Shown: positions 8,686 to 28,145 of the stretch, one piece after another | How the letters are laid out: every line of letters begins with the position of its first letter | Numbering within the stretch: the stretch's first letter is position 1 | NCBI GenBank assembly: GCA_903907745.1 | Contig: CAIVPF010000147.1 | Location: forward strand, 1-36,533 | DNA length: 36,533 bases | Source of the DNA: an uncultured Cytophagaceae bacterium | GTDB lineage: Bacteria > Bacteroidota > Bacteroidia > Cytophagales > Spirosomataceae | Reading direction: 5' to 3' | The notes under the pieces: model-generated | The model's database searches: none | What the model saw: only the letters and a program-made list of their open reading frames with translations | What the model was told of the DNA's origin: nothing | Translations under genes and position numbers: made by a program

Positions 8686-8696
8686 AGGTGTGCTTG

Positions 8697-9950: not shown

Positions 9951-9951
9951 A

Positions 9952-11034: not shown

Positions 11035-11035
11035 C

Positions 11036-12292
11036 TTAAAAAAGTTCTTTTCCTGTGCTTAATTTGATTTGTTCGGCTGAAGTGGCCAGCTGCAATTTAA
11101 TTCGTGATATTTCTGAAACTGCATTATTATAGGACTCAAAGAAGTCCACAAATTCGAGTAAACTCACATTGCCTTTTTGAAAATTTTCGGTCATTCCTTT
11201 TAAGGTTATTTCAAAATCATCGTTAAATAATTTGGTATTTTTTTGATATTCCCGAACCGTTTGTTGGAATTGATAATAGGTACTTTGCACCTCGGCTTGC
11301 ACCTGGCTTTTCATCCCTTCATAGGCATAATTTTTCGCCTTGATTTGTAATTCAGCAGATTTGATATTTCCCTGGTTTTTGTTCCAAAACATTAAGGGAA
11401 TGGCCATACCCACGTTCACTTGGCGTTGAAATGCGCCACCACGTTGGTCATAGGAACTAAATAAGGTGATGTCCGGTTTGGCTAATTTTTGTTGGAAACT
11501 GAAATATTGCTGCGCAAATTGGGTGTCTTTTTGGCTCAATAATAAGTCCGGGCGATTTTCAAATGCCGTTTGAATTAATAAATCCAACGAAAAAGGTTGA
11601 ATAAAGGCCTTAATATCTTCCTCCTTAATGCGGGGAATCACCATTTGTTTGGTTTGTAAAATGGTTTGGACTTTGGTTAATTGAGCAAAGAAATCAGCAA
11701 ATATAGCCGCACGTTCGTTACTCAAATTCAAGTAAACTCCCTTTAAACGCACAAGGTCTTTTAATGGAATGTTTCCCTTGGCGGTTTGCCCTTCGTAGGT
11801 ATTGATAATGCCATCGAGCATTTTCATTTGGGTGTTGTATTTGTTGATCAATAATTGCTGCTGATTCAATAAATACAAACCGGTATGTAATTCGAACTTC
11901 AATTGACGTATCAAATCCTGAAATGCATATTCTGCCAGCGCCACATTGGTTTTCGCTAGATCGATTTGCGCTTTCCGTTTCCCGCCTAAGAGAATTAATT
12001 GTTCGATTTGAACGCTTTGTTGGCCCCCACTTCCTACATGTAGAATTTGGTTATTTTCTGGATCTATGGCGTTGAAATCAAGTGTCAACACGGGGTTTGG
12101 ATATAAACCTGCCTGAATGACTTGGGCTTTTTGAACGCTGATATTCAGTTCATTGGCCAAAACTAAATAATTCGTTTTGAGGAATAATTGGTCAGCTTCT
12201 ATGAGGGAGATCGATAAAGAATCTTTATCGGCCAGCGCAGAAAAAGTAGAAAGAAATAGTAGAAAAAAAGTAATTAATTTGAATTTTCGCAT
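11036..12292 (-). CDS. TolC/CzcC-like outer-membrane efflux protein
   Basis: A 418-residue outer-membrane factor with a Sec signal peptide (MRKFKLITFFLLFLSTFSALA). It has the internally repeated helical layout of the TolC family: PNPVLTLDFN after the first helices, long heptad-rich helices, a second repeat with RPDLLLSQKDTQFAQQ and LAKPDITLFSSYDQRGG, and GNVSLLEFVDFFESYNNAVSEISRIK near the C-terminus. It forms the exit duct of the metal exporter with the downstream adaptor and pump. It is the first structural gene of the efflux set and is preceded by a tandem-repeat operator at 12332-12350, which suggests it begins a regulated transcript separate from the kinase gene. Confidence 0.93.
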   Translation of the reverse strand: MRKFKLITFFLLFLSTFSALADKDSLSISLIEADQLFLKTNYLVLANELNISVQKAQVIQAGLYPNPVLTLDFNAIDPENNQILHVGSGGQQSVQIEQLILLGGKRKAQIDLAKTNVALAEYAFQDLIRQLKFELHTGLYLLNQQQLLINKYNTQMKMLDGIINTYEGQTAKGNIPLKDLVRLKGVYLNLSNERAAIFADFFAQLTKVQTILQTKQMVIPRIKEEDIKAFIQPFSLDLLIQTAFENRPDLLLSQKDTQFAQQYFSFQQKLAKPDITLFSSYDQRGGAFQRQVNVGMAIPLMFWNKNQGNIKSAELQIKAKNYAYEGMKSQVQAEVQSTYYQFQQTVREYQKNTKLFNDDFEITLKGMTENFQKGNVSLLEFVDFFESYNNAVSEISRIKLQLATSAEQIKLSTGKELF

Positions 12293-12313
12293 GGTTCATT
12301 TTTCAATGTTGCG

Positions 12314-12350
12314 CAAATTCAAAACATCCGCCTTAAAATAAACTTAAAAT
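12314..12350 (-). promoter_or_regulatory. Predicted response-regulator operator and promoter for the metal-efflux genes
   Basis: Two identical CTTAAAAT repeats (12332-12339 and 12343-12350, + strand) lie 11 bases apart, one helical turn. OmpR/PhoB-type regulators characteristically bind direct repeats at this spacing. On the - strand, ten bases further on, comes TGAATTTG (12314-12321), seven of eight matches to the Bacteroidota -7 element TAnnTTTG. No TTTG -33 box is present, as expected for an activator-dependent promoter. The tolC-like start is 22 bases downstream of the -7 box. The repeat abuts the kinase stop. Regulation by the adjacent two-component system is inference. Confidence 0.6.
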
Positions 12351-13723
12351 CATTTATTTATCTCTGGAAGATAGATGGTAAAGGTATTAAGGCTCTCTTT
12401 TTCGTCATGATGGTATTGGATTTTACCACCGTTTAGTGTGATGACTTTGTTCACGAGCACGAGTCCCAAACCGAATCCACGTTTGCCTTGGCTATTTTCG
12501 CCTCTAAAAAAATGTTGGAATAAATAGGGGATTTCCTTTTTGGGAATTCCTGGTCCGGGATTGGAAAATTTAATTTGCAATTCACCCCGAATGGCTTTAA
12601 AGTTGATCTTTGCGGAGGGTTTTGATGAATAATGGACGCAATTGAGCATTAAATTTTGGATGGCCATTTGCATCAAATGAAGGTTGCCCAAGACGGAAAG
12701 CTTTTCTTCATTCTCAATGCCGGGATCTAATACGATATCAAAATTGAATCCTGGGTGTAGTTTTTGGGTGTCTGCTAGGCAATCAAAAACTATTTCATCT
12801 AGGCGGATTTTTTGGAAGGATAATTTGGCATGCGTTTCGACTTTGGCTATTTCCAACAAGGAATTAATCATATCCCCCAACAGTTTCGTGTCTTCCTTTT
12901 GGTTTTTAATGCCAACTCTTAATTTGTCAGCATCTTTTTCCTTTTCTAATTGCTCCAAATTCGACACCAAAATCGAAATGGGCGTTTTTAACTCATGCGA
13001 AATATGATGGATCGCATGCTTTTGAAAATTAAAACTTTCCTTCAATCGAATCATTAAATCATTAAAACGAGAGGCTAAGACATGGATTTCGTCTTTGCGG
13101 TCCGGGATTTGTAAATATTGATTAGGCGTCTCGATGTTAATAATACGGAGGGAGGACGCCATGTCCATGATGGGTTGACTGATTTGTTTAGCCAATACGT
13201 AGGAGGCCAATAGTATCAATCCCAAAAACAAAAAGAATAAGACGATCAACAGGTTTTTTAAATAAGCTAATTTCGAATAGCCAAAAGCATCATAGGCCTT
13301 CGCAATGCCATAATATTGTTTGCCATTGAATTGGAAGGCCACACCAACTAACTCAAAATCATCTTCTTGGGTTTCTATGCTTTGATATTTGGCCCCTAAA
13401 CGATTTAAAATGCCATTCGGGAATTTGATGACCGTATCGTCAATACTTGAATAAATTAATTTTTTCTTTTCATCAAAAATGAGGGTTTTTTCCTTGATTA
13501 ATTTGTTAATCGTGGCCCCACCAAAGTTTTGTAATAAATTGTGATTCAGCTCTTTGGTTTCGGCTAATAAGCTAATGGTGGAAATGATGTGATCCTTGAT
13601 CCGCTGCTGGTATTCTTCCCGACGGTAATTGGAAAACACCGTAAATATCATCAAGAAGGTGATTCCTGTCACTGCGGTGGAAAGCAGTGAAAAGTAAAAT
13701 AAAATGCGTTGTCTAATGCTCAT
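12350..13723 (-). CDS. Sensor histidine kinase of the metal-efflux locus
   Basis: A 457-residue inner-membrane kinase. Transmembrane segments lie near residues 10-30 and 156-178, enclosing a periplasmic sensor of about 125 residues. A HAMP linker runs to about 230, the phospho-acceptor is His243 in HHISHELKTP, and an HATPase domain follows with an N-box (QNLMLNCVHYSS) and G-boxes (NPGPGIP, GFGLGLVLV). The start overlaps the last 11 bases of the regulator gene, as expected for a cognate pair. Its place just ahead of the TolC-like, adaptor and pump genes indicates metal sensing. No obvious metal-ligand cluster is visible in the sensor region, so the signal is not known. Confidence 0.93.
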   Translation of the reverse strand: MSIRQRILFYFSLLSTAVTGITFLMIFTVFSNYRREEYQQRIKDHIISTISLLAETKELNHNLLQNFGGATINKLIKEKTLIFDEKKKLIYSSIDDTVIKFPNGILNRLGAKYQSIETQEDDFELVGVAFQFNGKQYYGIAKAYDAFGYSKLAYLKNLLIVLFFLFLGLILLASYVLAKQISQPIMDMASSLRIINIETPNQYLQIPDRKDEIHVLASRFNDLMIRLKESFNFQKHAIHHISHELKTPISILVSNLEQLEKEKDADKLRVGIKNQKEDTKLLGDMINSLLEIAKVETHAKLSFQKIRLDEIVFDCLADTQKLHPGFNFDIVLDPGIENEEKLSVLGNLHLMQMAIQNLMLNCVHYSSKPSAKINFKAIRGELQIKFSNPGPGIPKKEIPYLFQHFFRGENSQGKRGFGLGLVLVNKVITLNGGKIQYHHDEKESLNTFTIYLPEINK

Positions 13724-14411
13724 TTTTCCCTAAATAATAGCCAAATCCAATTTTTGTTTTGATTAATGGGGTCTCAAAAGGCTTATCGATTTTCTTCCGC
13801 AGAAAATTGATATATACTTCGATGGTATTATTATTTTCATCCAATGAACCACCCCAAATATCCCGGTTCAATTCTCGTTTGGTCACAATTTTCCCATTCG
13901 ATTGTGCCAATTTCATCAGCAGATTGAATTCGCGGGCAGTTAAGGAAATTTCCTTGCGGTTCCGACTAACTTGCATTTGGGTACAATTGATTCTCAAATC
14001 CTCGATTTGCAGAATTTCATCTTCTTGAATGTGAATGCTGGGGCGCCTTTTGAGCAGCGCTTTGATACGCGCGAGAACCTCTTCCATGTAAAAAGGTTTG
14101 GTCAAATAGTCATCTACGCCACATTCGAAGCCTTTGATTTTATCCTCCAATTCAGAAAATGCGGTTAACATCAAGATCGGGGTTTCGGAATTATATTCCC
14201 TGAATTTTTTACTCAATTGAAATCCATCCAAATAGGGAAGGCTAATATCCAAAACGATGCATTCAAACGAATTTGCCTGCATCGTCCGTTGGGCCTGCAT
14301 GCCATCGAAGCAGGCTGACACATCAAAACCTTCTTTAATTAGGTACTCACTTAGGTTTTGACTGAGAATTTTGTCGTCCTCTACAATCAAAATATGATTT
14401 ATTTTACTCAT
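13713..14411 (-). CDS. OmpR/PhoB-family response regulator of the metal-efflux locus
   Basis: A 232-residue transcription factor. The receiver domain has the acidic pair Glu11/Asp12/Asp13, phospho-acceptor Asp55 in CIVLDISLPYLDG, a switch threonine in MLTAFSE and the invariant lysine in YLTKPF. A winged-helix DNA-binding domain occupies about residues 140-230 (LTAREFNLLMKLAQSNGKIVT, NTIEVYINFLRKKI). It overlaps the kinase gene by 11 bases. Its start directly touches the stop of the upstream oxidoreductase gene with no gap. It is the likely binder of the paired CTTAAAAT repeats at 12332-12350. Confidence 0.94.
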   Translation of the reverse strand: MSKINHILIVEDDKILSQNLSEYLIKEGFDVSACFDGMQAQRTMQANSFECIVLDISLPYLDGFQLSKKFREYNSETPILMLTAFSELEDKIKGFECGVDDYLTKPFYMEEVLARIKALLKRRPSIHIQEDEILQIEDLRINCTQMQVSRNRKEISLTAREFNLLMKLAQSNGKIVTKRELNRDIWGGSLDENNNTIEVYINFLRKKIDKPFETPLIKTKIGFGYYLGKNEH

Positions 14412-15809
14412 CTATACTTTATAATACTGCTCCCAACCTTTCCGTGGTGCTGCCCCTACGAGCAATTGGTTCGCCAATTTATTATTCGTAATCTGCTTCG
14501 TATTCCGATCAAATAACAATTTCGTATTTAATTTTTGCGCCATCACACCCAAGGTAAACACTTGACTCAAAGGTCCCGCAATCGCAAAAGGTGAACGCGT
14601 TTTTTCTTGACCCAAGCACGATTTCAAGTAATTTGCGTAGTGATTCGATGGGCTTTTCGGTACTTCGGGTAATCGAGAAGCGATTTCTTTTCCTTTTTCG
14701 CCTAAAATCGAAAGTGTAGAACCATGCGAACCGCCTTTGAAGGTCAAGTCCTTACTATAAATGATTTTTCCAGGGTTCAATTTCGCCGGTTGGATCTTTC
14801 CATTACTCGCCGGTGGAATATTCGGATCTAATTCATTCACGCCATAATCTGCCGGAACCGGTGGAATGTTATTAATGCCATCATACCAAGTGATATCCAT
14901 CGCCGGCATATCCTTACGAGCTGGGAATTTAAATAACAAAGTTGTCGACATGGGATAAAAGTATGGATTGTGGCCATCGGCTTTTAGCATATTCACCTCC
15001 GTCGGCAATCCCAAATCCAAAAATTCATGCGCCGTATCCATGATGTGTGCACCCCAATCGCCCAAGGCGCCTAAGCCGTAGTCGAACCAGCAGCGCCATT
15101 GGCCATTGATAAAATCTTTGTTGTAATCGTGTTTTTGAACTACGCCGTTCCAAATATCCCAATCCAAAGTGCTCGGAATATCCTCCGCATTCGGGAATTT
15201 AGACATTTTCGTATCCCATCCATGCCATCTTCGGGCTGAATTCATGTGGGCGGTCATCGAGGTAACATCCTTGATAATGCCCGCTTCTTTATAGGCTTTA
15301 AATTGGAAATAATTCGCTTCCGAGTGGCCTTGGTTTCCCATTTGGGTCACTAATTTCGGGTATTTCTTCGCCGCCGCCATCATAAGTTCTACCTCATGAA
15401 AGGTACGCGCCATCGGTTTTTCTACGTATACGTGTTTGCCTAAACCCAATGCCATCATTGTAATCGGGAAGTGAGAATGATCCGGTACGCCGATCGCGAC
15501 AGCATCGAACTGATTGCCCATCGCATCAAACATCTTCCTGAAATCCTGAAAACGCGGCACATCTGGGAATTTTTTTAATACCTCCAAGGTTTGAGGAGCA
15601 CCCATGTCCACATCACAAAAGGCCACGAAGTTCACCAAGCCTGTTTTTGCGAATGACATGACGTCGGATCCACCTTGATTACCGATGCCGATACAAGCTA
15701 AATTTACTTTTTCACCCGCGGAGCCTAAGCCATGCGTCAAAATATTCGGGAAGGCCATTGCTGCAGAAAACAATGACGTGTTTTTCAAAAAGGTTCTACG
15801 TGAATTCAT
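14412..15809 (-). CDS. Gfo/Idh/MocA family oxidoreductase with Tat leader
   Basis: A 465-residue exported oxidoreductase. I chose the ATG at 15809 because it gives a clean twin-arginine leader (NSRRTFLKN, residues 2-10). Frames from 15839 or 15836 only add about ten unrelated residues. The Rossmann motif GIGNQG lies at 41-46, DVDMG near 67, and the catalytic EKP at 130-132. The C-terminal half has the long inserts of the secreted Bacteroidota/Planctomycetota subgroup (WRCWFDYGLGALGDWGAHIMD). Members oxidise or reduce sugars bound to NAD(P), some making 3-keto sugars. It lies 44 bases behind the KdgF-like cupin gene and its stop abuts the response-regulator start. ATAGGTTTTTATA lies just upstream at 15818-15830. 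Confidence 0.9.
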   Translation of the reverse strand: MNSRRTFLKNTSLFSAAMAFPNILTHGLGSAGEKVNLACIGIGNQGGSDVMSFAKTGLVNFVAFCDVDMGAPQTLEVLKKFPDVPRFQDFRKMFDAMGNQFDAVAIGVPDHSHFPITMMALGLGKHVYVEKPMARTFHEVELMMAAAKKYPKLVTQMGNQGHSEANYFQFKAYKEAGIIKDVTSMTAHMNSARRWHGWDTKMSKFPNAEDIPSTLDWDIWNGVVQKHDYNKDFINGQWRCWFDYGLGALGDWGAHIMDTAHEFLDLGLPTEVNMLKADGHNPYFYPMSTTLLFKFPARKDMPAMDITWYDGINNIPPVPADYGVNELDPNIPPASNGKIQPAKLNPGKIIYSKDLTFKGGSHGSTLSILGEKGKEIASRLPEVPKSPSNHYANYLKSCLGQEKTRSPFAIAGPLSQVFTLGVMAQKLNTKLLFDRNTKQITNNKLANQLLVGAAPRKGWEQYYKV

Positions 15810-15853
15810 TAGATGGGATAGGTTTTTATAGGACATCAAGTTAAGAAATTATT

Positions 15854-16201
15854 TTATAAAAAATCGGCCCGCATGGGACTAAATACATCGATTAATTCTC
15901 CGGCTTCCAAGCACAGCGCGCCGTGGATTTCCCCACTCGGAACAAAATACACATCGCCCGCCGATAAAATTTTTGAAATTCCCGAAATCGTAATTTCAAA
16001 TTTGCCTTTCGACACATAAGACGCCTGGGTATGTGGATGATGGTGCAAGGTTCCGATAGAACCCGATTGAAAATCGACTTTGGTCAGCATCATGTCGGGA
16101 TTGTGCGCCATGACTTTCCGACGGATGCCATCGCCTAAATCCGTCCATTCAATCTCTTGATCTTCGATTAGCGTATTCGTTTTTGTCATATTCATTTTCA
16201 T
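15854..16201 (-). CDS. KdgF-like cupin protein
   Basis: A 115-residue single-domain cupin. The metal-binding motif is LHHHPHTQASYVSKGKFE, with the third histidine group in PSGEIHGALCLEAGELIDVFSPMR. The late DVFSPxRxDF ending is characteristic of KdgF, which opens 4,5-unsaturated uronates from pectin or alginate into linear keto acids in the cytoplasm. No signal peptide is seen. The paired Gfo/Idh/MocA gene lies 44 bases downstream. The window's GH88 and lyase genes would generate exactly the substrate of KdgF, about 15 kb away. Starts at 16201, 16195 and 16189 are equally plausible. Similar small cupins have other roles, so the specific function is inferred. Confidence 0.78.
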   Translation of the reverse strand: MKMNMTKTNTLIEDQEIEWTDLGDGIRRKVMAHNPDMMLTKVDFQSGSIGTLHHHPHTQASYVSKGKFEITISGISKILSAGDVYFVPSGEIHGALCLEAGELIDVFSPMRADFL

Positions 16202-16256: not shown

Positions 16257-17579
16257 ATGTCTTCTACTCAACAGCCTCACCTCAAAAAGGTCCTCAGTCC
16301 ACTCATGTTATGGGGCTTAGGCGTAGGCTATGTGATTTCGGGCATGTATTTCGGCTGGAACCTCGGCCTTCCCGAAGGCGGGACCTACGGCCTGGCCATC
16401 GCCACGGGCATCATCATTCTCCTGTATACCTGTTTTAGCTTTTCTTATGCGGAATTGGCCTGTTCGATTCCCAAAGCCGGTGGCGTGTTCGATTATGCCT
16501 CTCGGGCCTTCGGTGCTCGCTTGGGCTTCGTTGCGGGCATGGCCCAATTGATCGAATTTGTCTTCGCTCCCCCCGCGATCGCTTTTGGGATAGGCGCTTA
16601 TTTTAATTTGTTTTTTCCGGATGTGCCCGTCCTGACGATTTCAATCGTCGCCTATTTGCTTTTTACGGGGCTAAATATGTATGGCGTGAAGGCCGCAGCG
16701 ACCTTTGAATTAATCATTACCATCATCGCGGTGATTGAGATTCTGATCTTTGCGGCGGTGACTTTGCCGCATTTCGAGGTGGCTAATTTACATAAAAATG
16801 CGTGGCCGAATGGTTGGAATGGCGTCATCGCCGCGTTGCCCTTTGCGATTTGGTTTTTCCTGGGGATTGAAGGTTTGGCGAATGTGGCTGAGGAAGCAGA
16901 AAATCCCCAAAAAGATATTCAAAAGGGTTTTGGCTATGCGCTTTTAACCTTGGTTATTTTATGTGTTTTGGTTTTTCTTGGGGCCATCGGGGTAGGAGGA
17001 TGGGAAGCCATCGTATATAAAAACGGGCTCTCGGGCGATAGCTCGGATTCCCCCTTGCCGCTGGCGATGAGCCAGATTGTGGGTAGTTCTAGCTTGATGT
17101 TTCATGTATTGTTGACCATCGGTTTATTCGGTCTCGTGGCTTCTTTTCACGGTTTGATTTTAGCGGCGGGTCGGTCGAGTTATGAGTTGGGCGCCAAAGG
17201 CTTTGCTCCTCGTTTTTTGGGACAGGTCAATGAGCGATTTCAAACGCCGGCCAAGGCTTTATTGGCCAATATGGGCATCGGTATCATCGCCCTTTTTACG
17301 AATAAAACGGCGGAAATCATTACGATATCGGTGATGGGCGCTTTGACTTTGTATGCCATCGCGATGCTTTCCTTGCTGAGACTCCGAAAAAAAGAACCAG
17401 AGATGTCTAGGCCTTTTAAGGTACCTTTTTATCCCCTCATGCCGCTCGTGGCTTTGGTTTTGTCCACACTTTGCCTTATTTTTATTGCCTTTCATCAGAC
17501 TACCTTGTTTTTAATTTACGTGGGGATCCTGACGATATGTTATGTACTTTTTGTGTTGATTGTTCAACCCAAAACCTAA
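16257..17579 (+). CDS. eat: Ethanolamine permease (APC superfamily)
   Basis: A 440-residue membrane protein with about 12 helices. The N-terminus LMLWGLGVGYVISGMYFGW and the segments FSYAELACSIPKAGG and AQLIEFVFAPPAIAFGIGAYF are characteristic of the ethanolamine permease branch rather than general amino-acid carriers. The central PFAIWFFLGIEGLANVAEEAENP is the conserved helix 6 region. It is the first gene of a five-gene + strand operon, with four bases to the next start at 17584. The downstream enzymes are those needed to use an amino alcohol through gamma-glutamylation, which supports ethanolamine as the cargo. Substrate assignment rests on subfamily similarity from memory plus context. 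Confidence 0.86.
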   Translation: MSSTQQPHLKKVLSPLMLWGLGVGYVISGMYFGWNLGLPEGGTYGLAIATGIIILLYTCFSFSYAELACSIPKAGGVFDYASRAFGARLGFVAGMAQLIEFVFAPPAIAFGIGAYFNLFFPDVPVLTISIVAYLLFTGLNMYGVKAAATFELIITIIAVIEILIFAAVTLPHFEVANLHKNAWPNGWNGVIAALPFAIWFFLGIEGLANVAEEAENPQKDIQKGFGYALLTLVILCVLVFLGAIGVGGWEAIVYKNGLSGDSSDSPLPLAMSQIVGSSSLMFHVLLTIGLFGLVASFHGLILAAGRSSYELGAKGFAPRFLGQVNERFQTPAKALLANMGIGIIALFTNKTAEIITISVMGALTLYAIAMLSLLRLRKKEPEMSRPFKVPFYPLMPLVALVLSTLCLIFIAFHQTTLFLIYVGILTICYVLFVLIVQPKT

Positions 17580-17583
17580 AACT

Positions 17584-18933
17584 ATGACTGAAAATCAAAT
17601 CCTCGATTATGTCCGCGAACATGCGGATCAGCGAGTTAAAGTAGCCATCACCGACATCGACGGAGTCCTACGTGGAAAATATATTAGTACCGAAAAATTC
17701 TTATCGGCTGTGCAAGGCAACCTTGGGTTTTGCAATGTGGTCTTTGGCTGGGATATGGCCGATGTGGCCTATGAGAATTCCGCCTACACGGGTTGGCATT
17801 CTGGCTACCCTGATGCCCCTGTGCGGATTGATGTTACTTCCTTTCGGGCCATTCCTTGGGAAAATAATATTCCCTTTTTTCTGTGTGAATTAATCGATGC
17901 GCCATCGAATTCGGCGGCGGTTTGTCCGCGGGGCTTGTTGAAGGGCCTGATCTCCCAGGCAGAAAAAGCTGGTTTCAGCCCCTTTTTCAGTCAGGAATTC
18001 GAATGGTTTAATTTCGAAGAAACACCCAATTCCGTGCATGAAAAGAATTTCCAAAATCTGAAGCCACTTTCCCCGGGGATGTTTGGCTATTCGATTTTGC
18101 GGAGCACCTTACGCAATGATTTTTTTGATGCGCTTTTTGGCCAATTGAGCGCCTTCGGCATTCCCCTCGAGGGCTTGCACACCGAAACGGGACCGGGAGT
18201 TTACGAGGCGGCGATTGCCTACTCGGGCATTTTAGAAGCAGCTGATCGGGCTGTTTTGTTTAAATCTTCGGTCAAAGAATTAGCCTATAAAAAAGGCATT
18301 ATGGCTACGTTTATGGCCAAATGGGATGAGAATCTCCCCGGTTGCAGCGGCCATGTGCATCAAAGCCTCTGGGATGCCAAACAGGAAAAAAACCTGTTTT
18401 TCGACGAAAAAACGGGCATGAGTGAATTATTCCAACACTATGTAGCGGGTCAATTGTATTGCTTGCCTCATATCTTGCCGATGGTCGCACCCACGGTGAA
18501 TTCCTTCAAGCGCTTGGTGGAAGGGGCTTGGGCACCGACGACCTTGACCTGGGCGACCGATAACCGGACCGTGGCGCTTCGGGCTTTGCCAGGGAGTAAA
18601 AAAGCGAGTCGTTTGGAAACGCGGGTGGTGGGTTCGGATGTGAATCCCTATTTGGCGATGTCAGCCTGTTTAGCGGCCGGATTGTATGGCATTAAGCACA
18701 AATTAGCCCTTCAGCCTGCTACGGTGGGCAATGGCTATGCGGATGAACGTTATGGTCGTTTGCCTGGAAATTTACAAAAAGCGACCCAAGCGATGAAGGA
18801 ATCGGCGGTGGCGAAGGAATTATTTGGCGAGGAATTTGTGAATCATTTTGTGGCGACACGGGAGTGGGAATGGGCCCAATTCAGCCGAGTGGTTAGTGAT
18901 TGGGAAAAGAAACGGTATTTTGAAATTATTTAA
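17584..18933 (+). CDS. Glutamine synthetase-like gamma-glutamyl-ethanolamine/polyamine ligase
   Basis: A 449-residue ATP-dependent ligase of the glutamine synthetase fold. I took the ATG at 17584 because earlier codons overlap the permease stop and add an unrelated tail. Seen motifs are the N-terminal TDIDGVLRGKYI, the acidic pocket HTETGPGVYEAAIAYS, the nucleotide/metal motif GCSGHVHQSLWD, and NSFKRLVEGAWAP with the late RALPG segment. It is of the PuuA/GlnA4/IpuC kind that joins glutamate to an amine rather than to ammonia. With an ethanolamine permease before it and an alcohol dehydrogenase after it, gamma-glutamylethanolamide is the likely product. Other amines such as putrescine or alaninol are possible. 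Confidence 0.88.
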   Translation: MTENQILDYVREHADQRVKVAITDIDGVLRGKYISTEKFLSAVQGNLGFCNVVFGWDMADVAYENSAYTGWHSGYPDAPVRIDVTSFRAIPWENNIPFFLCELIDAPSNSAAVCPRGLLKGLISQAEKAGFSPFFSQEFEWFNFEETPNSVHEKNFQNLKPLSPGMFGYSILRSTLRNDFFDALFGQLSAFGIPLEGLHTETGPGVYEAAIAYSGILEAADRAVLFKSSVKELAYKKGIMATFMAKWDENLPGCSGHVHQSLWDAKQEKNLFFDEKTGMSELFQHYVAGQLYCLPHILPMVAPTVNSFKRLVEGAWAPTTLTWATDNRTVALRALPGSKKASRLETRVVGSDVNPYLAMSACLAAGLYGIKHKLALQPATVGNGYADERYGRLPGNLQKATQAMKESAVAKELFGEEFVNHFVATREWEWAQFSRVVSDWEKKRYFEII

Positions 18934-18935
18934 AA

Positions 18936-20084
18936 ATGGATTTTACGCAAATAAGACAATTTAATTTCCCCACCGTCATTCGGTTCGGGGTGGGTGCTGT
19001 GAAAGAATTAGCCCCTTATGTAGCTCAACAAGGATTTTCAAAACCCCTCATCGTAACCGATCCGGTCATAGCCGAACTAGGTTTTTTCAAACAAATTGTG
19101 GCCGATCTGCAGCGGGCCGGTTTTTCGGTGGAGGTATTTTCCAGTATCCATAAAAATCCAGTAAAATCGGATGTCTATGCGGGAACGGCGGTGTGGGATG
19201 CCACAGGTCGCGATTGCCTGATCGGAATCGGTGGAGGCGCCGCCTTGGATGTGGCGAGGGCGATCGTCTTACAGGTGAATCACCGAGAAGATTTGTTTAA
19301 ATACGATGATTTGATCGGTGGTGATGTCTATGTGACGAACGAAGTTCCGCATTTTATTACCATTCCGACGACCTCGGGAACAGGCTCGGAAGTGGGGCGC
19401 TCGGCGATTATTGCCGACGATGATACGCATCAAAAAAAGATCTTATTTTCACCCAAATTATTAGCCAAAATCGTCTTCGCAGATCCGATGTTGACTATGG
19501 AATTACCTGCCTTTGTGACGGCAGCCACGGGCATGGATGCTTTGACGCATAATATGGAGGCCTATTTGGCCAAAAACTATCATCCCATGTGCGATGGAAT
19601 CGCCTTGGAAGGGATGCGTTTGGTTTCGGAATCGTTGGTACAAGCGGTGAAAAATCCGAGCATTGAATCAAGGTCAAAGATGTTATTAGCTTCGATGATG
19701 GGCGCAATTGCGTTCCAAAAAGGCTTGGGTGTGGTGCATTCTTTGGCACATCCGCTGTCGTCTTTGTTGGACACCCACCATGGCCTCGCGAATGCGGTGA
19801 ATATTCCCTACGGTATGCGCTTTAATATAGCGGGTTTTGAGGATCGATTTGCGCGGATGGCCCAGACTTTGGGTCTTTCGGAACATTCGGGAGATGCGGT
19901 GGTGTCTTATTTGTTTGACTTGAATACCCAAGTAGGCATTCCACATCGTTTAAGAGACATTCAGGTGAAAGAGGAACATTTGGATACCTTGGCGGCCTTG
20001 GCATTTGCTGATTTTGCGCATCCCAATAATCCCAAACCGGTTTCTCAAGCAGATTTTAGAGCCCTTTACGGAGAAGCCTTATAG
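18936..20084 (+). CDS. Iron-containing alcohol dehydrogenase
   Basis: A 382-residue group III alcohol dehydrogenase. The NAD-binding loop reads GIGGGAALDVA (97-107, with Ala where Ser is usual), followed by TIPTTSGTGSEVG near 143-154. Metal ligands are Asp201 and His205 in MDALTHNMEAY, His268 in VVHSLAHPL, and His282 in THHGLAN. It starts two bases after the ligase stop and ends three bases before the amidase. Its predicted job is to oxidise the hydroxyl of gamma-glutamylethanolamide to the aldehyde. This is the step that separates this operon from the putrescine pathway, which uses the amine oxidase PuuB. Function within the operon is inferred from order and chemistry. Confidence 0.9.
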   Translation: MDFTQIRQFNFPTVIRFGVGAVKELAPYVAQQGFSKPLIVTDPVIAELGFFKQIVADLQRAGFSVEVFSSIHKNPVKSDVYAGTAVWDATGRDCLIGIGGGAALDVARAIVLQVNHREDLFKYDDLIGGDVYVTNEVPHFITIPTTSGTGSEVGRSAIIADDDTHQKKILFSPKLLAKIVFADPMLTMELPAFVTAATGMDALTHNMEAYLAKNYHPMCDGIALEGMRLVSESLVQAVKNPSIESRSKMLLASMMGAIAFQKGLGVVHSLAHPLSSLLDTHHGLANAVNIPYGMRFNIAGFEDRFARMAQTLGLSEHSGDAVVSYLFDLNTQVGIPHRLRDIQVKEEHLDTLAALAFADFAHPNNPKPVSQADFRALYGEAL

Positions 20085-20087
20085 ACT

Positions 20088-20783
20088 ATGGTTCGCATCG
20101 GCATTACGGAATCAGATACCAATTTTAAAAACTATCCCACTTGGATCCAAGGGGATGGGGTAGAGGTAATTTCGCTTTCTTATCTGAATCAAAACAAAGC
20201 TGATTTTGCGCGATGCGATGGGTTTGTCTTGTCGGGCGGGGCGGATATGCATCCCTCAGGTTATGGAAATTCGCGGGTGGATTATCCTTGGGCCACGTCT
20301 TTTAATGAGGTGCGTGATGCCTTTGAACGCGAGGTTTTTCATTTTGCATGTATACATGAAAAGCCAGTCTTGGCGATTTGCCGGGGCTTGCAATTAGTCA
20401 ATGCTGCCCTCGGGGGTACGCTGATTCAGGATTTACAAGAACAGGGTTTTTCGAATCACCGCAAGGGGCCGGAGGCGGATGGCCAGCATGCCATTTCCGT
20501 GGAGCCTTCTAGTCTATTATTTTCGATTTCTGGTCAATCGCAAGGTCTCGTTAATTCAGCTCATCATCAAGGCTTAGACCGAATTGCGGAATCGCTTCGG
20601 GTGACTTCTTGGTCGGAAGACCGGGTGGTGGAGGCGATTGAATATATCGATTTTGACCAAAAACCATTCTTTTTAGGGGTCCAATGGCACCCTGAGCGCT
20701 TAGCTATCCAAGCAAGCCAGCAAGCCTTTTCCAAGAATATCCGTCAGGCATTTTTAGATGCCGCAACTCATACAAACGAATGA
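20088..20783 (+). CDS. PuuD-like gamma-glutamyl hydrolase (class I glutamine amidotransferase fold)
   Basis: A 231-residue cytoplasmic enzyme of the peptidase C26 family. The nucleophile is Cys98 in AICRGLQLVN, with His201 and Glu203 in GVQWHPER completing the triad. The oxyanion region is VLSGGADMHP near 47-56. Family members such as PuuD split gamma-glutamyl-GABA into glutamate and GABA. In this operon the matching substrate would be gamma-glutamylglycine, giving glycine and recycling glutamate for the ligase. It overlaps the aldehyde dehydrogenase start by ATGA at 20780-20783, so the two are coupled. The family call is firm and the substrate is inferred. Confidence 0.91.
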   Translation: MVRIGITESDTNFKNYPTWIQGDGVEVISLSYLNQNKADFARCDGFVLSGGADMHPSGYGNSRVDYPWATSFNEVRDAFEREVFHFACIHEKPVLAICRGLQLVNAALGGTLIQDLQEQGFSNHRKGPEADGQHAISVEPSSLLFSISGQSQGLVNSAHHQGLDRIAESLRVTSWSEDRVVEAIEYIDFDQKPFFLGVQWHPERLAIQASQQAFSKNIRQAFLDAATHTNE

Positions 20784-22144
20784 ATATCATTAATCCAGCT
20801 ACCGAAGCATTGATTGCCCAAGTTGACGCAGACACGGCCGAAACCCTAGCTCTAAAATTTCAGCGCCTCCAAGCTGCGCAAGCGGCCTGGGCGGCAAGAT
20901 CAATAGAAGAACGCTCGGCGATTTTGCTTCGCTTTGTTGACCTATTGAAACAAAACATCGAAACCCTCGCATCGATTTTGACGGCGGAAATGGGGAAGCC
21001 TTTGCAACAAAGTCGGAATGAAATTAATGGCGCCTCTGGCAAAGCTACCTGGCTCGCGGAACATGCGCCGACGTACCTGGCCGACGAACTCATGTCCGTT
21101 TCCGAGCAAATGACCGAAAAGATTGTCTATGAAGCTTTGGGGGTGATTTGTAATATTTCCGCTTGGAATTATCCCTATAATGTGGGGGTGAACGTATTTG
21201 TTCCGGCGCTCTTGGCCGGGAATGCGGTCATGTATAAACCTTCTGAATTCGCGACGATGACGGGGATGGAAATCGCTCGATATCTACATGAAGCGGGGGT
21301 ACCTGAGGATGTGTTTGTCCTCGCGATTGGCGAGGGAGAAGTAGGAAAATGTTTATTAGACCTTCCTTTTCAAGGCTATTATTTTACGGGATCTTACCCA
21401 ACGGGCAAATACATCTACGAACGTGTGTCTGAAAAAATGGTGCCTTGTGTCCTTGAATTAGGTGGCAAGGATCCGGTCTATGTCGCGGAAGATGTGGTGG
21501 ATGTGGCTGGCGCTGCGGCGGGCATTGCGGATGGGGCATTTTATAACAATGGGCAAAGTTGCTGCTCCGTCGAGCGGATCTACGTCCACGAAAAAATCTA
21601 TGATGAATTCGTCGAGGTATTTGTGACCGAGGTTAATTCCTGGAAAATAGGCGCGCCGACAGAAGAAGGAGTGTACATTTCAGTCCTCACTAGAAAAAAT
21701 CAAATCGCGGTATTAGAGGCTCAAGTGGCCGATGCGCTCAGCAAAGGTGCTCGTGTGTTAACGGGTGGCGCGGCGATCGAGGGGAAGGGATATTATTTTG
21801 CGCCAACGGTCTTCGTTGACGTGCAGCAAAACATGGCCCTCATGCAGGAAGAGAGTTTCGGCCCGATCATCGGAATCATGAAAGTACGTTCAGATGCGGA
21901 GGCGGTTCAGGCGATGAACGACACGGCCTATGGTTTAACGGCGGGGGTGTATGCTGCTTCTCAAACGCGGGCAGAAGCAATCTTAGCTCAGGTGAATTCC
22001 GGCTCAGGCTATTGGAATTGTTGCGACCGCGTCAGCGCTGCCCTACCATGGAGTGGCCGAGGCCATTCGGGATTCGGATCCACACTTTCCCATGTGGGTT
22101 TACGAGCCTTCACGAAAACAAAATCATATCATTTACGGAAATAA
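20780..22144 (+). CDS. Aldehyde dehydrogenase (NAD(P)+), predicted gamma-glutamyl-aminoaldehyde type
   Basis: A 454-residue ALDH-superfamily protein. Catalytic residues are visible: Asn130 in SAWNYP, Glu226 in LELGGKDP, and nucleophile Cys261 in NNGQSCCSVERIYV, with Cys262 next to it. The cofactor-binding FTGSYPTGK is at about 202-210, and EESFGPI is near the C-terminus. The start overlaps the amidase stop as ATGA. It would oxidise the gamma-glutamyl aldehyde made by the preceding alcohol dehydrogenase to the acid. It is the last gene of the operon and is followed at once by a strong hairpin with T-run. Confidence 0.92.
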   Translation: MNIINPATEALIAQVDADTAETLALKFQRLQAAQAAWAARSIEERSAILLRFVDLLKQNIETLASILTAEMGKPLQQSRNEINGASGKATWLAEHAPTYLADELMSVSEQMTEKIVYEALGVICNISAWNYPYNVGVNVFVPALLAGNAVMYKPSEFATMTGMEIARYLHEAGVPEDVFVLAIGEGEVGKCLLDLPFQGYYFTGSYPTGKYIYERVSEKMVPCVLELGGKDPVYVAEDVVDVAGAAAGIADGAFYNNGQSCCSVERIYVHEKIYDEFVEVFVTEVNSWKIGAPTEEGVYISVLTRKNQIAVLEAQVADALSKGARVLTGGAAIEGKGYYFAPTVFVDVQQNMALMQEESFGPIIGIMKVRSDAEAVQAMNDTAYGLTAGVYAASQTRAEAILAQVNSGSGYWNCCDRVSAALPWSGRGHSGFGSTLSHVGLRAFTKTKSYHLRK

Positions 22145-22195: not shown

Positions 22196-24115
22196 TTATT
22201 TCTGCGCATTAATCCAAGCGGCTAATTTTTTAATGTCGCCTTTGGGTAAATGGCCCATTGGTGGCATCGGGGTCGAATATTCTGGCCAATTCGAAGGTTT
22301 AGGCATCGCGATTAAAGCTTCGATTTGCGCATTGGTATATTTCCGTTTCGCCACTTCCGTATAGGCTGGACCCACCGCTTTTTCGTTCACTTTGTGACAA
22401 GCGAGACAAGTATGTTTCGTTAAAAGGGCCTTTGCTTCTTTATCTGAAATGATGCTGGCTGCGATTTTTGGACCGGCTTCTTTGGTTTGATTATCGGGTG
22501 TGTTGGCTTCCTTACTCGGATCCGTTAACTCCTTTTTCGCCTTAGGCTTGGGAGTTTGCAAAGGGATATTTGCCTTAGCCCCCGCAGGAATGGCGTTTAA
22601 AGTATAATAAGCTGTACCGTGCAAAAGCGGATTCGATTCTACCTCCGAAAGGACGCCTTCGGGAACGATGCTGTGGATATAACCTTCGCGTAAATTATCT
22701 ACGACCAAACGAACTTTTAGGCCATCCGCTGAAACTTGGGCTCCACGAACGGGATTCTCTTTGCGGTTGACCATCGGACTGCCATAGACCGGATGGTATT
22801 TGTAGATATACGAACTGACATCGTAATTGTTGATATCCGCGGCTAATTTCCGGTTCACCGGCAAGGTAAATTCGATCTCAAAACCATCCGGCATCGCGCG
22901 AACAGCCTTCATCTCAAAGGGTGTTTTTCCCGTAAACAATAGGCGCTCTAAACCGAAATCCTCTCGTCCGATGGAACCCCAACCGCGATTGGTACCCCCC
23001 ACGAACATACTATTATCGCTACCCCAAGTCATGCGTAAAACACCTGAGCGGAAGCCCGACATAAAGTCAAAGGACGCCCCTTGGTATCTACCATTCACCT
23101 TTTCTAAAAATACACGGGCGATTTTGGACATTCCTTGATCTCCTACGAATACTTGACCCGCAAATGGACCAAATTTCCCTTTGCCATCATCGACTAATAA
23201 CTCGGAGGTCGATACACCTAAAACCCCATAGGGCAACCAAACCGCCGGAGATTTTATTCCCATGTTCGGTAAAGTTTTCGCCATTTCATAAATCGTAGTC
23301 ATCGGCTTCGCCTCGGTCTCCACATATTCTGGTTTCACTAGCGGATTATCGCGTGGGTCAACTAAATTAAAGACCATTTCCTTGCGCATCTTTACGGGAG
23401 ATTCTGGTCGGTCCGCCCAATTCAATGAGGCTGGATGTCCTAAGAAATCCCCTTTTTCCACATGGGAAATGAATCCGGAACCTTGCCAATCGCCCTGGTT
23501 ATCTCCATAGAAGAATTCGCCATCCACCATACCGATGCCACAAGGGGACCGCATGCCAGCCGCGAAAGGCTCCATTTTTCCATCAGGACTGATTTTGATC
23601 GTCCAACCGCGCCAAGGCACCGTGGATTTCCCTGCCCACCAATCCGTGTTACCAAAGGCCACATTGCCCGTGATGTAAAAAGATCCGTCTGGCCCGATTT
23701 TGGGTCCATAAGAATACTCATGGTAATGTCCCGAAATAGGCCATGAATAAACAGTTTCATAACGTTCTGCCTTTCCGTCCCCATTTTTGTCTACAAGACG
23801 GGTTAATTCGCCGCGTTGGGCACAATACAAAAAGCCATCCTTATACGCCAAACCTAAGATTTCATGTAATCCGCTGGCGAATTTTCGGAAATAAGGTCGG
23901 GTGGAATTCGGATTTTCGATGATGTACACATCTCCTCGACGGGTCGATGCCGCCATGTCGCCATTCGGCAATAAGGCTAATCCACCCACCTCCAATACAA
24001 TCCCTTCGGGTGTAGCGATTTTCGCGATTTTATAATAATCAGATTCTACGGGTTTTTGGCCAATAAGGCGCGTTCCCATCAATAATAAACAAATTAGTAC
24101 GTGATATTTTTTCAT
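22196..24115 (-). CDS. Exported beta-propeller/cytochrome c fusion protein
   Basis: A 639-residue secreted or periplasmic protein. The ATG at 24115 is used because it gives the signal peptide MKKYHVLICLLLMGTRLIGQ. A TTG at 24124 only adds three residues. The first two thirds resemble the PQQ-dependent sugar dehydrogenase/sorbosone dehydrogenase propeller (GGLALLPNGDMAASTRRGDVY, LAYKDGFLYCAQRGELTRL). The last 75 residues are a class I cytochrome c domain with haem motif CLACH at 570-574 and a likely axial Met in STPMPPMG near 617-620. A Pro/Lys-rich linker joins them. Such proteins are thought to pass electrons from oxidised sugars to the respiratory chain. It lies 18 bases behind the DUF1080 gene. 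Substrate unknown. Confidence 0.85.
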   Translation of the reverse strand: MKKYHVLICLLLMGTRLIGQKPVESDYYKIAKIATPEGIVLEVGGLALLPNGDMAASTRRGDVYIIENPNSTRPYFRKFASGLHEILGLAYKDGFLYCAQRGELTRLVDKNGDGKAERYETVYSWPISGHYHEYSYGPKIGPDGSFYITGNVAFGNTDWWAGKSTVPWRGWTIKISPDGKMEPFAAGMRSPCGIGMVDGEFFYGDNQGDWQGSGFISHVEKGDFLGHPASLNWADRPESPVKMRKEMVFNLVDPRDNPLVKPEYVETEAKPMTTIYEMAKTLPNMGIKSPAVWLPYGVLGVSTSELLVDDGKGKFGPFAGQVFVGDQGMSKIARVFLEKVNGRYQGASFDFMSGFRSGVLRMTWGSDNSMFVGGTNRGWGSIGREDFGLERLLFTGKTPFEMKAVRAMPDGFEIEFTLPVNRKLAADINNYDVSSYIYKYHPVYGSPMVNRKENPVRGAQVSADGLKVRLVVDNLREGYIHSIVPEGVLSEVESNPLLHGTAYYTLNAIPAGAKANIPLQTPKPKAKKELTDPSKEANTPDNQTKEAGPKIAASIISDKEAKALLTKHTCLACHKVNEKAVGPAYTEVAKRKYTNAQIEALIAMPKPSNWPEYSTPMPPMGHLPKGDIKKLAAWINAQK

Positions 24116-24133
24116 GTCTGTCAAAGGCTAGAA

Positions 24134-25927
24134 TTACCAAAGAATGGAATAGTGAACTTGTTCCGCAGCGGGCAAGGTGAGGACTTTTGAAAGGCCTTGG
24201 GTTTCTATAGTTGCCCCCGTGGCTTGGATGTAATAGGATTTCCCGTCCAAAACATAGGTGTTTTCATTCACCTGTTTGATGTCCGTGGAAAGCCCTATGC
24301 GAACCTTTTGACCTGCCTTTGCATTTTTGATCTTTAAGGTTCGGTCCAAATATTTGTGGTCCACAATTCGGATTTTATCGGTCACATCCGCTCCCCCTAT
24401 CTCATAAAGAAAGGTAGGGTTTTCATCCTGATCTACTTCATAGCCTTTGATTTTATAGGGCTCTGAAACCACATCGCTTTGAGAAAATAAGTTTTCCTGA
24501 AGGCTGAGGGAAGGAACATTTGGAAGTCCGAGGACGACACCGCGTGGTCGGGATGAACCATCTCCGCGGGAATCCCACATGGGGGTGGTGTTTAAGAAAT
24601 CGCCTTTCCAGATTTGTGCGATGGATCCATTATCCAAATCATAGGTATAATGCAGATTGGCAGGGTTTCCCACATTTACGGCATGCACGACGCGCTTGGT
24701 TTTCTTGCCGTTTTTATACAGGTCCATGAAGGAGCGGAAAATGGTTGGGTTTTTAGCGTCCATTAAAATCGGGTCATCGCTGCTCGAATTGAGGAAAGAA
24801 CCGAAACTGTGGTAGGCGGTCGATCTGAATTCAGGCCCTTTAAGCCAAAAGCCTAATTTATTCGCGGAGCTTTTATTCTTCTTGAAAACCGTGATTTCGA
24901 GGGCGACTTTACCCGCTGGAAGATCCACGATTTCAGTCCGGCGGCGATTATTTTCTTGGATTAATTCCTTGTAAATTTCGACACCGTTCAGCTTAATGAT
25001 GTGTTTTCCTCCGATTTCAAATTCCACTTGGTGTTTTCCTGCTTTTGGAATTTCAAAAGACGTTTTGAGGATTTCTGCAAAACCGAAGGGCTTCGCACTG
25101 ACGTCCCAACTAATCTTTTCCGTTACGCCACTTACATCCGCTTTTTTGTCTTTAAATTCTTCTGGGGATGTAAAAACGCCATAAAAAACTTGGTAGCTTA
25201 CCGGATCCATGGTTGCGGGTAAATTACTTAAGTCGGTGATTTCCATGTTGCGAAAGGCAACCGCACCGTGGTCACCTTGGATCATGATGGGTCCTTTGGC
25301 AACTTCCGTTTCAGCAATAGGTCCGCCAGTAGGGCCGGTTAATTCGACATTTTCATGTAAAATGGCTCCGTTTAATTTGACCATAAGGACTTTGGCGTTT
25401 GCGATTTTGGTGCCTTGGGCATCGAAGCGGGGCGCTTGGAAGGAGATTTCCATGTGTTGCCACAAGCCAGGTGCCAAACACGCATTCACTCGGGGCGCAT
25501 GACCTTCGTATAAATATTCTTGTGGGATGAATTTTCTGCGTTTGTAGATTCCCCCACAATCGCCGGTTCCGGGATTTTTAACGCCCCAAGAATCCATTAA
25601 TTGGATTTCATAGCGACCTTGTAAATAGAATCCGGAATTCGATTCCGCCGCCATCATGAAGTCGAAAGAAGCATCGAAATCACCGTATTCCTTGGCGGAA
25701 ATGAGGTTAGCTTTATTTGTTTTATCTGGCAGATTGACTAAAATACCGGTGCCGGGAATGAGGCTTAAAACGCCATGTTGGGATAAATCCGCCTGCGCAT
25801 CGGAGGCGATTTGCCAATTGGCCTTGTTTGTATGTTGCCAAAACGACAAGTCCTTCAGCGGCAGGCTGGTTTGGGCTTGAAGGGCCATGGGAATGAATAG
25901 GACGAGCGTCCAAAGTGTTTTTTTCAT
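24134..25927 (-). CDS. DUF1080 (3-keto-disaccharide hydrolase-like) secreted protein
   Basis: A 597-residue exported protein with signal peptide MKKTLWTLVLFIPMALQAQ. Residues about 30-235 form a DUF1080 domain, a concanavalin-like fold (FDFMMAAESNSGFYLQGRYEIQL, GDCGGIYKRR, PIMIQGDHGAVAFRNMEI). DUF1080 enzymes of Bacteroidota act on 3-keto-glycosides made by Gfo/Idh/MocA dehydrogenases. A middle segment at about 255-360 looks like a small PA14-like carbohydrate-binding sandwich (GKHIIKLNGVEIYK). The final 230 residues, with MWDSRGDGSSRPRG, I cannot assign. It has ATAGGTTTTTATA upstream at 25940-25952 and lies between the transporter and cytochrome genes on one transcript. Confidence 0.83.
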   Translation of the reverse strand: MKKTLWTLVLFIPMALQAQTSLPLKDLSFWQHTNKANWQIASDAQADLSQHGVLSLIPGTGILVNLPDKTNKANLISAKEYGDFDASFDFMMAAESNSGFYLQGRYEIQLMDSWGVKNPGTGDCGGIYKRRKFIPQEYLYEGHAPRVNACLAPGLWQHMEISFQAPRFDAQGTKIANAKVLMVKLNGAILHENVELTGPTGGPIAETEVAKGPIMIQGDHGAVAFRNMEITDLSNLPATMDPVSYQVFYGVFTSPEEFKDKKADVSGVTEKISWDVSAKPFGFAEILKTSFEIPKAGKHQVEFEIGGKHIIKLNGVEIYKELIQENNRRRTEIVDLPAGKVALEITVFKKNKSSANKLGFWLKGPEFRSTAYHSFGSFLNSSSDDPILMDAKNPTIFRSFMDLYKNGKKTKRVVHAVNVGNPANLHYTYDLDNGSIAQIWKGDFLNTTPMWDSRGDGSSRPRGVVLGLPNVPSLSLQENLFSQSDVVSEPYKIKGYEVDQDENPTFLYEIGGADVTDKIRIVDHKYLDRTLKIKNAKAGQKVRIGLSTDIKQVNENTYVLDGKSYYIQATGATIETQGLSKVLTLPAAEQVHYSILW

Positions 25928-26962: not shown

Positions 26963-26990
26963 CTTTCCTATGTATCCAATTTACAAACCT

Positions 26991-28145
26991 ATGAAATACC
27001 TGTTTGGCCTATTTTTCTCCCTTTTTTTTATAAACCTCAGCCTCGCGAAAGGTCACCCAGATTATTTAAAAAGAGCCAACAAAGTTCTGATTCAAAAGAA
27101 ACTTTATTCCGTCATGAATAAGGTGCAAATTCCCCCTTCAGGCGATAAGCATGACTATATGAGCCAAGGGCCTTATTGGTGGCCAGACCCTAGCAAGCCC
27201 GATGGCAAACCCTACATCCGAAAAGACGGAGAACGAAATCCGGAAATCAAAAACATCACAGATTCGGATGAAATGGATGATTTAATCCTGGATGTGGAGG
27301 CTTTGACCGAGGCCTATAAACAAACGAAAAATAGTATATATGCCGATTTCGCCGCCAAACTCATCAAAACTTGGTTCATCGATCCCGCTACCAAACAAAG
27401 CCCCAATTTGAAATTTAGCCAAGGTATTCCAGGCATCAACGACGGCCGGGGAATCGGGCTCATCGAAACTCGTTTTTTATTCAAAATCACCAATGCGGCG
27501 ACCCAATTGCAAGGAAGCAGCGCATGGACTGCCACAGATCATCGCCAATTAAAACAATGGTTTCAGGAATTTTTGACTTGGATGACCACGAGTGAAATCG
27601 GGCTAGATGAGGCCGATGAGCACAATAACCACGGTACTTATTATGACGTTCAGGTGATTGATTATGCACAATTTACGGGCCAGGTAGATGTAGCGAAAAA
27701 ACAAGTTGAGGTAACCAAAGGTCGGATGGCTTCGCAGTTGAAGCCCGACGGCTCCCAACCCCACGAATTAGCCCGCACCAAATCCTTCGGTTATTCGCTC
27801 ATGAATCTGGAAGGCTTTTTTATCATCGCGGAACTTGCGAAAAAACAAGGGATTGACCTATTTACGTATCAGACTCCCGAAGGCGCCAGCCTGAAAAAAT
27901 GCCTTGATTTTTTAGTGCCTTATATTAAAAAGGAAAAGGTGTGGACGTACCAACAAATCGCCGAAATCCATTGGGCAGACACCGAAGAACTCCTTCGAAA
28001 AGCGGCCATTTATTATAAAGATCCAGCCTATGGGCTTTTGGCTGATCAGGTTAGTGCGTATGTACCCTTGAAATTTTCTGGGCTGTATTTTGCAAAAGGC
28101 GAAAAAAGTTTTTTAAATGTAGGCACTGAACCCCATAAATACTGA
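26991..28145 (+). CDS. PF05426-type (alginate lyase-like) polysaccharide lyase
   Basis: A 384-residue exported lyase of the alpha-toroid class (PF05426, which includes PL5, PL38 and relatives). I chose the ATG at 26991 because it opens the signal peptide MKYLFGLFFSLFFINLSLA. The ATG at 26970 lies at the predicted transcription start. Conserved segments are GPYWWPDP (60-67) with YIRKDGERNPE, GRGIGLIET (152-160), and the predicted catalytic NNHG at 212-215, with FGYSLMNLEG later. Members cleave uronic-acid polysaccharides, including alginate and glucuronan, by beta-elimination. It is a paralogue of the lyase at 30302-31441, which shares the WWPDP, RGIGLI/RGIGII and NNHG blocks. A small exported protein follows after ten bases. 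Confidence 0.87.
   Translation: MKYLFGLFFSLFFINLSLAKGHPDYLKRANKVLIQKKLYSVMNKVQIPPSGDKHDYMSQGPYWWPDPSKPDGKPYIRKDGERNPEIKNITDSDEMDDLILDVEALTEAYKQTKNSIYADFAAKLIKTWFIDPATKQSPNLKFSQGIPGINDGRGIGLIETRFLFKITNAATQLQGSSAWTATDHRQLKQWFQEFLTWMTTSEIGLDEADEHNNHGTYYDVQVIDYAQFTGQVDVAKKQVEVTKGRMASQLKPDGSQPHELARTKSFGYSLMNLEGFFIIAELAKKQGIDLFTYQTPEGASLKKCLDFLVPYIKKEKVWTYQQIAEIHWADTEELLRKAAIYYKDPAYGLLADQVSAYVPLKFSGLYFAKGEKSFLNVGTEPHKY

Follow-up and report, generated by a model that had tools for sequence, protein, structure and literature searches.

The window, that is, the whole 36,533-nucleotide stretch analyzed here (contig CAIVPF010000147.1 of GenBank assembly GCA_903907745.1, from an uncultured Cytophagaceae bacterium of the Bacteroidota), carries at 16257-22144 an operon of five genes, all on the plus strand, which by family encode together a ligase, an alcohol dehydrogenase, an aldehyde dehydrogenase (ALDH), and a putative gamma-glutamylglycine hydrolase, preceded by a permease. 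A preliminary description of this DNA had proposed five tightly ordered genes of these families for ethanolamine catabolism, and the layout proved correct, as coordinates, order, strand, and spacing were confirmed on the sequence, with gaps of 4, 2, and 3 bases and then an ATGA overlap between the hydrolase and ALDH genes; all five family assignments were likewise upheld. The ligase starts at ATG 17584, whereas the list of open reading frames begins it at TTG 17560.

16257..17579, plus strand: APC-family permease of the ethanolamine-permease (Eat, TIGR00908) type (TIGR00908, 437.5 bits; cut-off 381.75)
17584..18933, plus strand: glutamine-synthetase-like ligase, proposed gamma-glutamylethanolamide synthetase (Pfam Gln-synt_C, 317 bits)
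18936..20084, plus strand: iron-type alcohol dehydrogenase (FeADH), proposed gamma-glutamylethanolamide dehydrogenase (Pfam Fe-ADH and ADH_Fe_C)
20088..20783, plus strand: Peptidase_C26 (PuuD family) hydrolase, proposed gamma-glutamylglycine hydrolase (Pfam Peptidase_C26, 163 bits)
20780..22144, plus strand: ALDH, proposed to convert the gamma-glutamyl aldehyde into gamma-glutamylglycine (Pfam Aldedh, 421 bits)

The enzymes carry recognizable active-site residues. In the FeADH, D201, H205, H268, and H282 sit at the metal-ligand motifs and are presumably the ligands themselves; in the hydrolase, C98, H201, and E203 lie within AICRG and WHPE and are taken by us to be the catalytic triad; and in the ALDH, E226 and C261, which we likewise assume to be catalytic, lie within ELGGKD and GQSC. 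In the alignment, the ligase retains the metal and glutamate residues of glutamine synthetase (GS), namely E138, E140, E201, E208, H257, E345, and R347. On the other hand, E327 of true GS, described in the part of PMC6529630 used here as essential for glutamine synthesis, corresponds to W316 in the window ligase and is W in 38 of 38 rows of its clade as well as in the amine ligase PauA7. As aligned, the window ligase is therefore without the flap glutamate of ammonia-using GS.

Conservation of the five genes as a unit

The five genes form a real, conserved unit, and their order recurs far beyond chance. Synteny was followed by tblastn, with rows required to cover 45-50% of the query length, in the 80 named Bacteroidota loci with the best ligase matches out of at least 593 loci encoding a ligase relative; ligase identity of at least 45% and ALDH identity of at least 50% were required, a filter that removes weak ALDH matches on the minus strand in L101, L104, and L110. 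The order seen in the window was found as a complete run on one strand in 45 of these 80 loci, including Pedobacter, Parapedobacter, Olivibacter, Solitalea, Chitinophaga, Flavisolibacter, Rhodocytophaga, Lacihabitans, Emticicia sp. CRIBPO, one Flavobacterium, and many metagenome-assembled genomes. Median identities to the window in the 45 complete loci are 64% for the permease, 67% for the ligase, 76% for the FeADH, 41% for the hydrolase, and 65% for the ALDH. The same order occurs in 5 of 41 loci taken from a sample of 296 genomes of the phylum (own genome not counted) and in 12 of 20 loci taken from relatives, some of which coincide with named loci. Among proteins of at least 90 residues encoded next to the operon in 63 loci, no conserved regulator or sixth gene was found, the commonest family being present in 8 of the 63, which are the window and its near relatives.

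In the 296 genomes, a ligase match at E ≤ 1e-60 is present in 42, at 53% identity or more in 34 (own genome included) and at 33-36% in the other 8; the five-gene order is found in 5 of the 33 other genomes of the higher class, a different gene set in the remaining 28. The FeADH at E ≤ 1e-100 is present in only 6, which are the own genome and the 5 other operon carriers. As for the 35 incomplete named loci, 16 include 7 kb on each side of the ligase, and the other 19 include less on at least one side. We searched for the FeADH elsewhere in 11 genomes from these 35 loci, whose fetched stretches have none beside the ligase, with one control (L112); 10 of the 11 encode one at 73-80% identity, in one case divided between the ends of two contigs, and in the remaining genome the identity is 52%. 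The contig that carries the ligase of L101 stops 1.4 kb downstream, and the FeADH may still adjoin the ligase there. In six loci from Emticicia and related genomes (L109, L115, L122, L124, L127, and L142), the ligase gene is separated from the rest of the operon and is flanked by genes for an ATP-grasp-like protein (26.0 bits; cut-off 27) and for a conserved protein of about 444 residues that, judged by eye, looks like a GntP-type permease; both of the two that were checked encode the FeADH elsewhere in the genome.

The ligase lineage and a second gene set

A ligase tree was built from 50 chosen rows, with Ruegeria and Paracoccus ligases standing in for those of Phaeobacter sp. MED193 and Chromohalobacter salexigens, and the ligase of Embleya (Streptomycetaceae, same kind of cluster) for GlnA4 of Streptomyces coelicolor; PuuA, ipuC, and L197 were flagged as long branches. 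The structure 5dm3, whose record reads only "L-glutamine synthetase," is presumably the C. salexigens ligase. In this tree the window ligase forms one clade with the ligases of 17 other five-gene loci (support 100/98), nested among the ligases of a sister gene set, of which 12 of 33 loci were included. Further members of the wider clade are encoded by Photobacterium sp. GJ3 and Legionella lytica together with an ALDH, an FeADH, and an amidotransferase, and in GJ3 also a permease. In the window's genus, a ligase match was found in 18 of the 38 genomes searched (own genome included), and four genomes at least 90% complete gave no match. The genus holds two versions of the operon, one window-like (81-95% ligase identity) and one at 63-64% in six genomes (L188-L191, L202, and L203), the representative of which (L188) joins L047 of another family with support of 100/99; two versions in one genus fit, and suggest, transfer between lineages of the phylum.

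In 33 of 33 loci of the sister gene set (28 from the phylum sample, L051-L078, and those of relatives, L193-L197), a ligase 48-63% identical to that of the window is followed by genes for a roughly 347-residue protein and a HAD hydrolase, at oriented positions of about 8340-10270; in L053, three open frames lie between these two. No counterpart of the permease, FeADH, C26 hydrolase, or ALDH gene of the operon was found in the fetched stretches of the 33 loci. A Pfam search with the 347-residue protein of L054 gave no match at 0.001, seven members searched at E 1 gave chance-level Pfam matches only, including one to APH at 0.16, and there was no sequence match in the Protein Data Bank. Its structure model is poor (mean predicted local distance difference test score of 60) and weakly matches small-molecule kinases of the APH type (best E 2e-5, template-modeling score 0.41), with an aminopropanol kinase at rank 9; by this weak fold match the protein may be kinase-like. 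A substrate signature was also sought in the ligases themselves, but none of the columns that are invariant across the 18 five-gene rows has a different residue shared by 11 or more of the 12 kinase/HAD rows.

Ethanolamine as the probable substrate

One of the main membrane lipids carries ethanolamine as its head group. What is observed here is which genes are present and in what order, their conservation and co-occurrence, and the catalytic residues of their products; we infer the individual reactions, and ethanolamine as their substrate, as follows. The permease would import ethanolamine, which the ligase would couple to glutamate at its gamma-carboxyl group, spending ATP; the alcohol of the resulting gamma-glutamylethanolamide would be oxidized to the aldehyde by the FeADH, the ALDH would convert this into gamma-glutamylglycine, and the C26 hydrolase would yield glycine and regenerated glutamate. 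The glycine may enter the glycine cleavage system, and GcvP is encoded in the own genome. We consider it probable that the operon serves B12-independent use of ethanolamine through gamma-glutamylation.

This substrate is called on the permease and the gene company rather than on the ligase. The permease scores above the cut-off of the curated ethanolamine-permease model, so that by family the cluster would include ethanolamine-specific uptake. At E ≤ 1e-100 it has matches in 12 of the 296 genomes, nine of them at 55% identity or more, namely the six operon carriers and three genomes (G158, G064, and G190) that carry a GlnA4-like ligase. For example, in G158 and G064 (loci L081 and L085) a permease homologue of 62-63% identity stands beside a GlnA4-type ligase, a short-chain dehydrogenase (SDR), an ALDH, and a glutamine amidotransferase, and these four enzymes are the set published for Streptomyces in the part of PMC6529630 used here; in G190, permease and GlnA4-like ligase are on separate contigs. 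The remaining three matches are at 45-47% identity, and two of these genomes carry a ligase of the kinase/HAD set. This company of the permease, as read from the genomes, argues for ethanolamine. The FeADH, in turn, argues for an alcohol substrate. When FeADH matches among plasmid records were compared with the GS-like ligase matches, 13 of the 25 FeADH rows listed lay within about 3 kb of a listed GS-like ligase, among them the first eight, of which four represent a single P. denitrificans plasmid; in Paracoccus alcaliphilus, for example, an RpiR gene, three TRAP transporter genes, a ligase, an ALDH, and an FeADH are clustered. EutB gave no match in the own genome, an assembly 92.9% complete, whereas the E. 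coli control was detected. The B12-independent gamma-glutamyl amino-alcohol route of the preliminary description is thus favored by the permease score, the lack of an EutB match, and the co-occurrence of FeADH and ligase; its pathway is not a new one, however, and its ligase does not group with GlnA4.

Several observations weigh against ethanolamine or leave the ligase mute on it. The tree sets 10 rows of the GlnA4 and Phaeobacter types apart from 38 rows on the window side, each group on branches of 100/99, and the window ligase is only 33-37% identical to the four aligned ethanolamine-type ligases. It thus falls outside the clade of known ethanolamine gamma-glutamylases and would work like them without being their orthologue, which weakens the substrate call; orthology to the GlnA4 or Phaeobacter-type ligases as a ground for the substrate was ruled out by the tree, and the precedent of GlnA4 invoked in the preliminary description does not carry over by descent. 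An acidic residue occupies the putative D50 column in 17 of 18 five-gene rows, as against 1 of 10 GlnA4/Phaeobacter-type rows, in a region where the alignment is loose; the part of PMC6529630 used here aligns D81 or D69 of GlnA4 to D50. The four enzymes all score below the cut-offs of the NCBIfam families listed (for the ALDH, 25 of 43) and the permease alone passes, so that family membership does not fix the substrates of the enzymes. Related ligases, at 48-63% identity, stand in the kinase-like/HAD context without the remaining operon genes nearby, and because no column separates the two groups, ligase sequence does not fix the substrate either. In addition, several of the 16 incomplete loci with 7 kb on both sides have no permease nearby, and on two alphaproteobacterial plasmids a ligase of the wider clade lies beside an aminotransferase and spermidine/putrescine-type ABC genes. 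We tentatively entertain the view, which we would not put at even chances, that glutamylation of ethanolamine in Bacteroidota proceeds via a separate ligase lineage, having arisen at least twice among GS-like ligases, and that the kinase-like/HAD set represents a second, undescribed use of such a ligase, perhaps with a phosphorylated gamma-glutamyl intermediate.

The same chemistry might instead act on another short amino alcohol, such as 3-amino-1-propanol, alaninol, or isopropanolamine, and yield beta-alanine, alanine, or another product. This would agree with a ligase clade that differs from the known ethanolamine type, with an FeADH whose best curated family is 4-hydroxybutyrate dehydrogenase (336 bits, below the cut-off of 500), and with the Paenarthrobacter ipuC ligase, annotated for isopropylamine, which at 38-39% identity is as near to the window ligase as the GlnA4 and Phaeobacter-type ligases; yet the permease passes the ethanolamine cut-off, and its subfamily also occurs in GlnA4-type clusters within the phylum, and we regard such a substrate as unlikely. 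A polyamine or alkylamine pathway like that of PuuA-PuuD, in which the FeADH would act on another alcohol, is much harder to reconcile with the data and appears highly improbable, even though the hydrolase belongs to the PuuD family and the ligase weakly matches the gamma-glutamylputrescine synthetase model (192.6 bits; cut-off 650). The FeADH is constant in place of an amine oxidase, the permease scores far below the cut-offs of the polyamine-antiporter models that it matched, PuuA is the longest branch of the ligase tree, and there is no conserved sixth gene, so that an amine oxidase is not part of the unit (no search of those loci was aimed at PuuB itself). We give almost no credence to an ordinary GS for nitrogen assimilation with accidental neighbors. 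The GS fold and the metal and glutamate residues are retained as this would demand, but E327 is replaced by W, the type I GS model scores 212 bits against a cut-off of 429, two other GS-fold genes are present in the genome, and the five-gene order is conserved across families. Ethanolamine remains our preferred substrate.

The surroundings of the operon were also annotated. Its flanks (14412-16201 and 22196-25927) hold genes of sugar-oxidoreductase type, including Gfo/Idh/MocA (best model glycoside 3-dehydrogenase, below cut-off), a cupin, a cytochrome-c-domain protein, and a 3-keto-disaccharide hydrolase; of these, the cupin gene and the two downstream genes are found again in 7-8 of the 63 loci, in near relatives. 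The minus strand of 5566-14411 encodes an AcrB-type RND pump, an OprB-like porin, and an outer-membrane efflux protein adjoining a histidine kinase and a response regulator. A second APC permease, which scores only 71.7 bits with the ethanolamine model, is encoded at 1900-3237 and precedes a Gfo/Idh/MocA gene. Proteins with alginate-lyase and heparinase II/III-like domains are encoded at 26970-28142 and 28503-30464 and are perhaps part of a uronate polysaccharide locus.

Comparison with known gamma-glutamylation systems

Gamma-glutamylation of ethanolamine is already in print for Phaeobacter (PMC10132767) and Streptomyces (PMC6529630), as far as the parts of these papers used here go, with the same enzyme roles, so that only the phylum and the composition of the operon could be new. 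Flavobacterium is among the genera reported to use ethanolamine, the route not being given in the passage concerned (PMC9397018); therefore, ethanolamine use in the phylum is itself not new. In the literature searched, mostly as titles and abstracts and with subscription papers mostly outside it, the pathway in Bacteroidota, the operon, and the ligase lineage were not found described, and unopened papers, such as PMC5114307 on rumen bacteria, could hold more. The statement in the preliminary description that the route is not well described in this phylum holds to that extent, but other bacteria are known to have the route, and we regard the Bacteroidota operon and its ligase lineage as a variant of a known pathway. 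If the assignment is true, many Bacteroidota, including Pedobacter, Chitinophaga, and an Emticicia, own a B12-independent and compartment-free means of using ethanolamine, which surveys by EutBC or by the TRAP protein EtoX alone would overlook. The operon also provides a defined gene set for direct substrate testing of the new ligase lineage.

The operon of Phaeobacter sp. MED193 encodes ETAGA, GETADH, GAADDH, GGAH, and EtoVWX, its proteins were raised during growth on phosphorylethanolamine, EtoX bound ethanolamine, and C. salexigens and Agrobacterium tumefaciens are cited for the same route (from the part of PMC10132767 used here). Its four reactions are those proposed for the window operon. 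Its alcohol dehydrogenase was equated with the FeADH by position, the text used here making no statement on the iron type; the window FeADH shares 38% identity with that of Ruegeria and 42% with that of Paracoccus, and the P. alcaliphilus cluster has the Phaeobacter layout, as given in that same part of the paper, minus the hydrolase. On the other hand, uptake relies on the TRAP transporter EtoVWX in Phaeobacter and would rely on an APC permease in the window, the hydrolase is of the C26 family in the window and an N-formylglutamate amidohydrolase in the Ruegeria cluster, and the ligases belong to distinct clades. The window ALDH is 34-38% identical to seven ALDHs of Phaeobacter-type clusters, which are 49-67% identical among themselves. 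Replacement by an unrelated ALDH is not claimed; because the ALDH within the Paracoccus albus cluster ranks first among the 12 plasmid rows listed, at 259 bits as against 214 for the second, divergence is as likely as replacement.

The GlnA4 cluster of S. coelicolor shares with the window the ligase, the ALDH, and an amidotransferase-type hydrolase, and a permease is present in other Streptomyces (PMC6529630, in the part used here), but it has an SDR where the window has the FeADH, and its ligase is of a different clade. The window operon thus lacks both marks of the GlnA4 type, an SDR-type dehydrogenase and a GlnA4-clade ligase, whereas L081 and L085 (Bacteroidota), L208, and, in another gene order, L205 have them. 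The E. coli Puu pathway has the ligase, ALDH, and PuuD hydrolase roles in common with the window operon but uses the amine oxidase PuuB where the window has an alcohol dehydrogenase, and its ligase is 31% identical. The Photobacterium sp. GJ3 plasmid cluster (L206), on the other hand, encodes a permease, a ligase (45%), an ALDH, an FeADH, and an amidotransferase-type hydrolase in one run; its ligase falls in the sister clade of the Bacteroidota ligases, whereas its gene order differs from that of the window and its ALDH and hydrolase are closer to those of other clusters.

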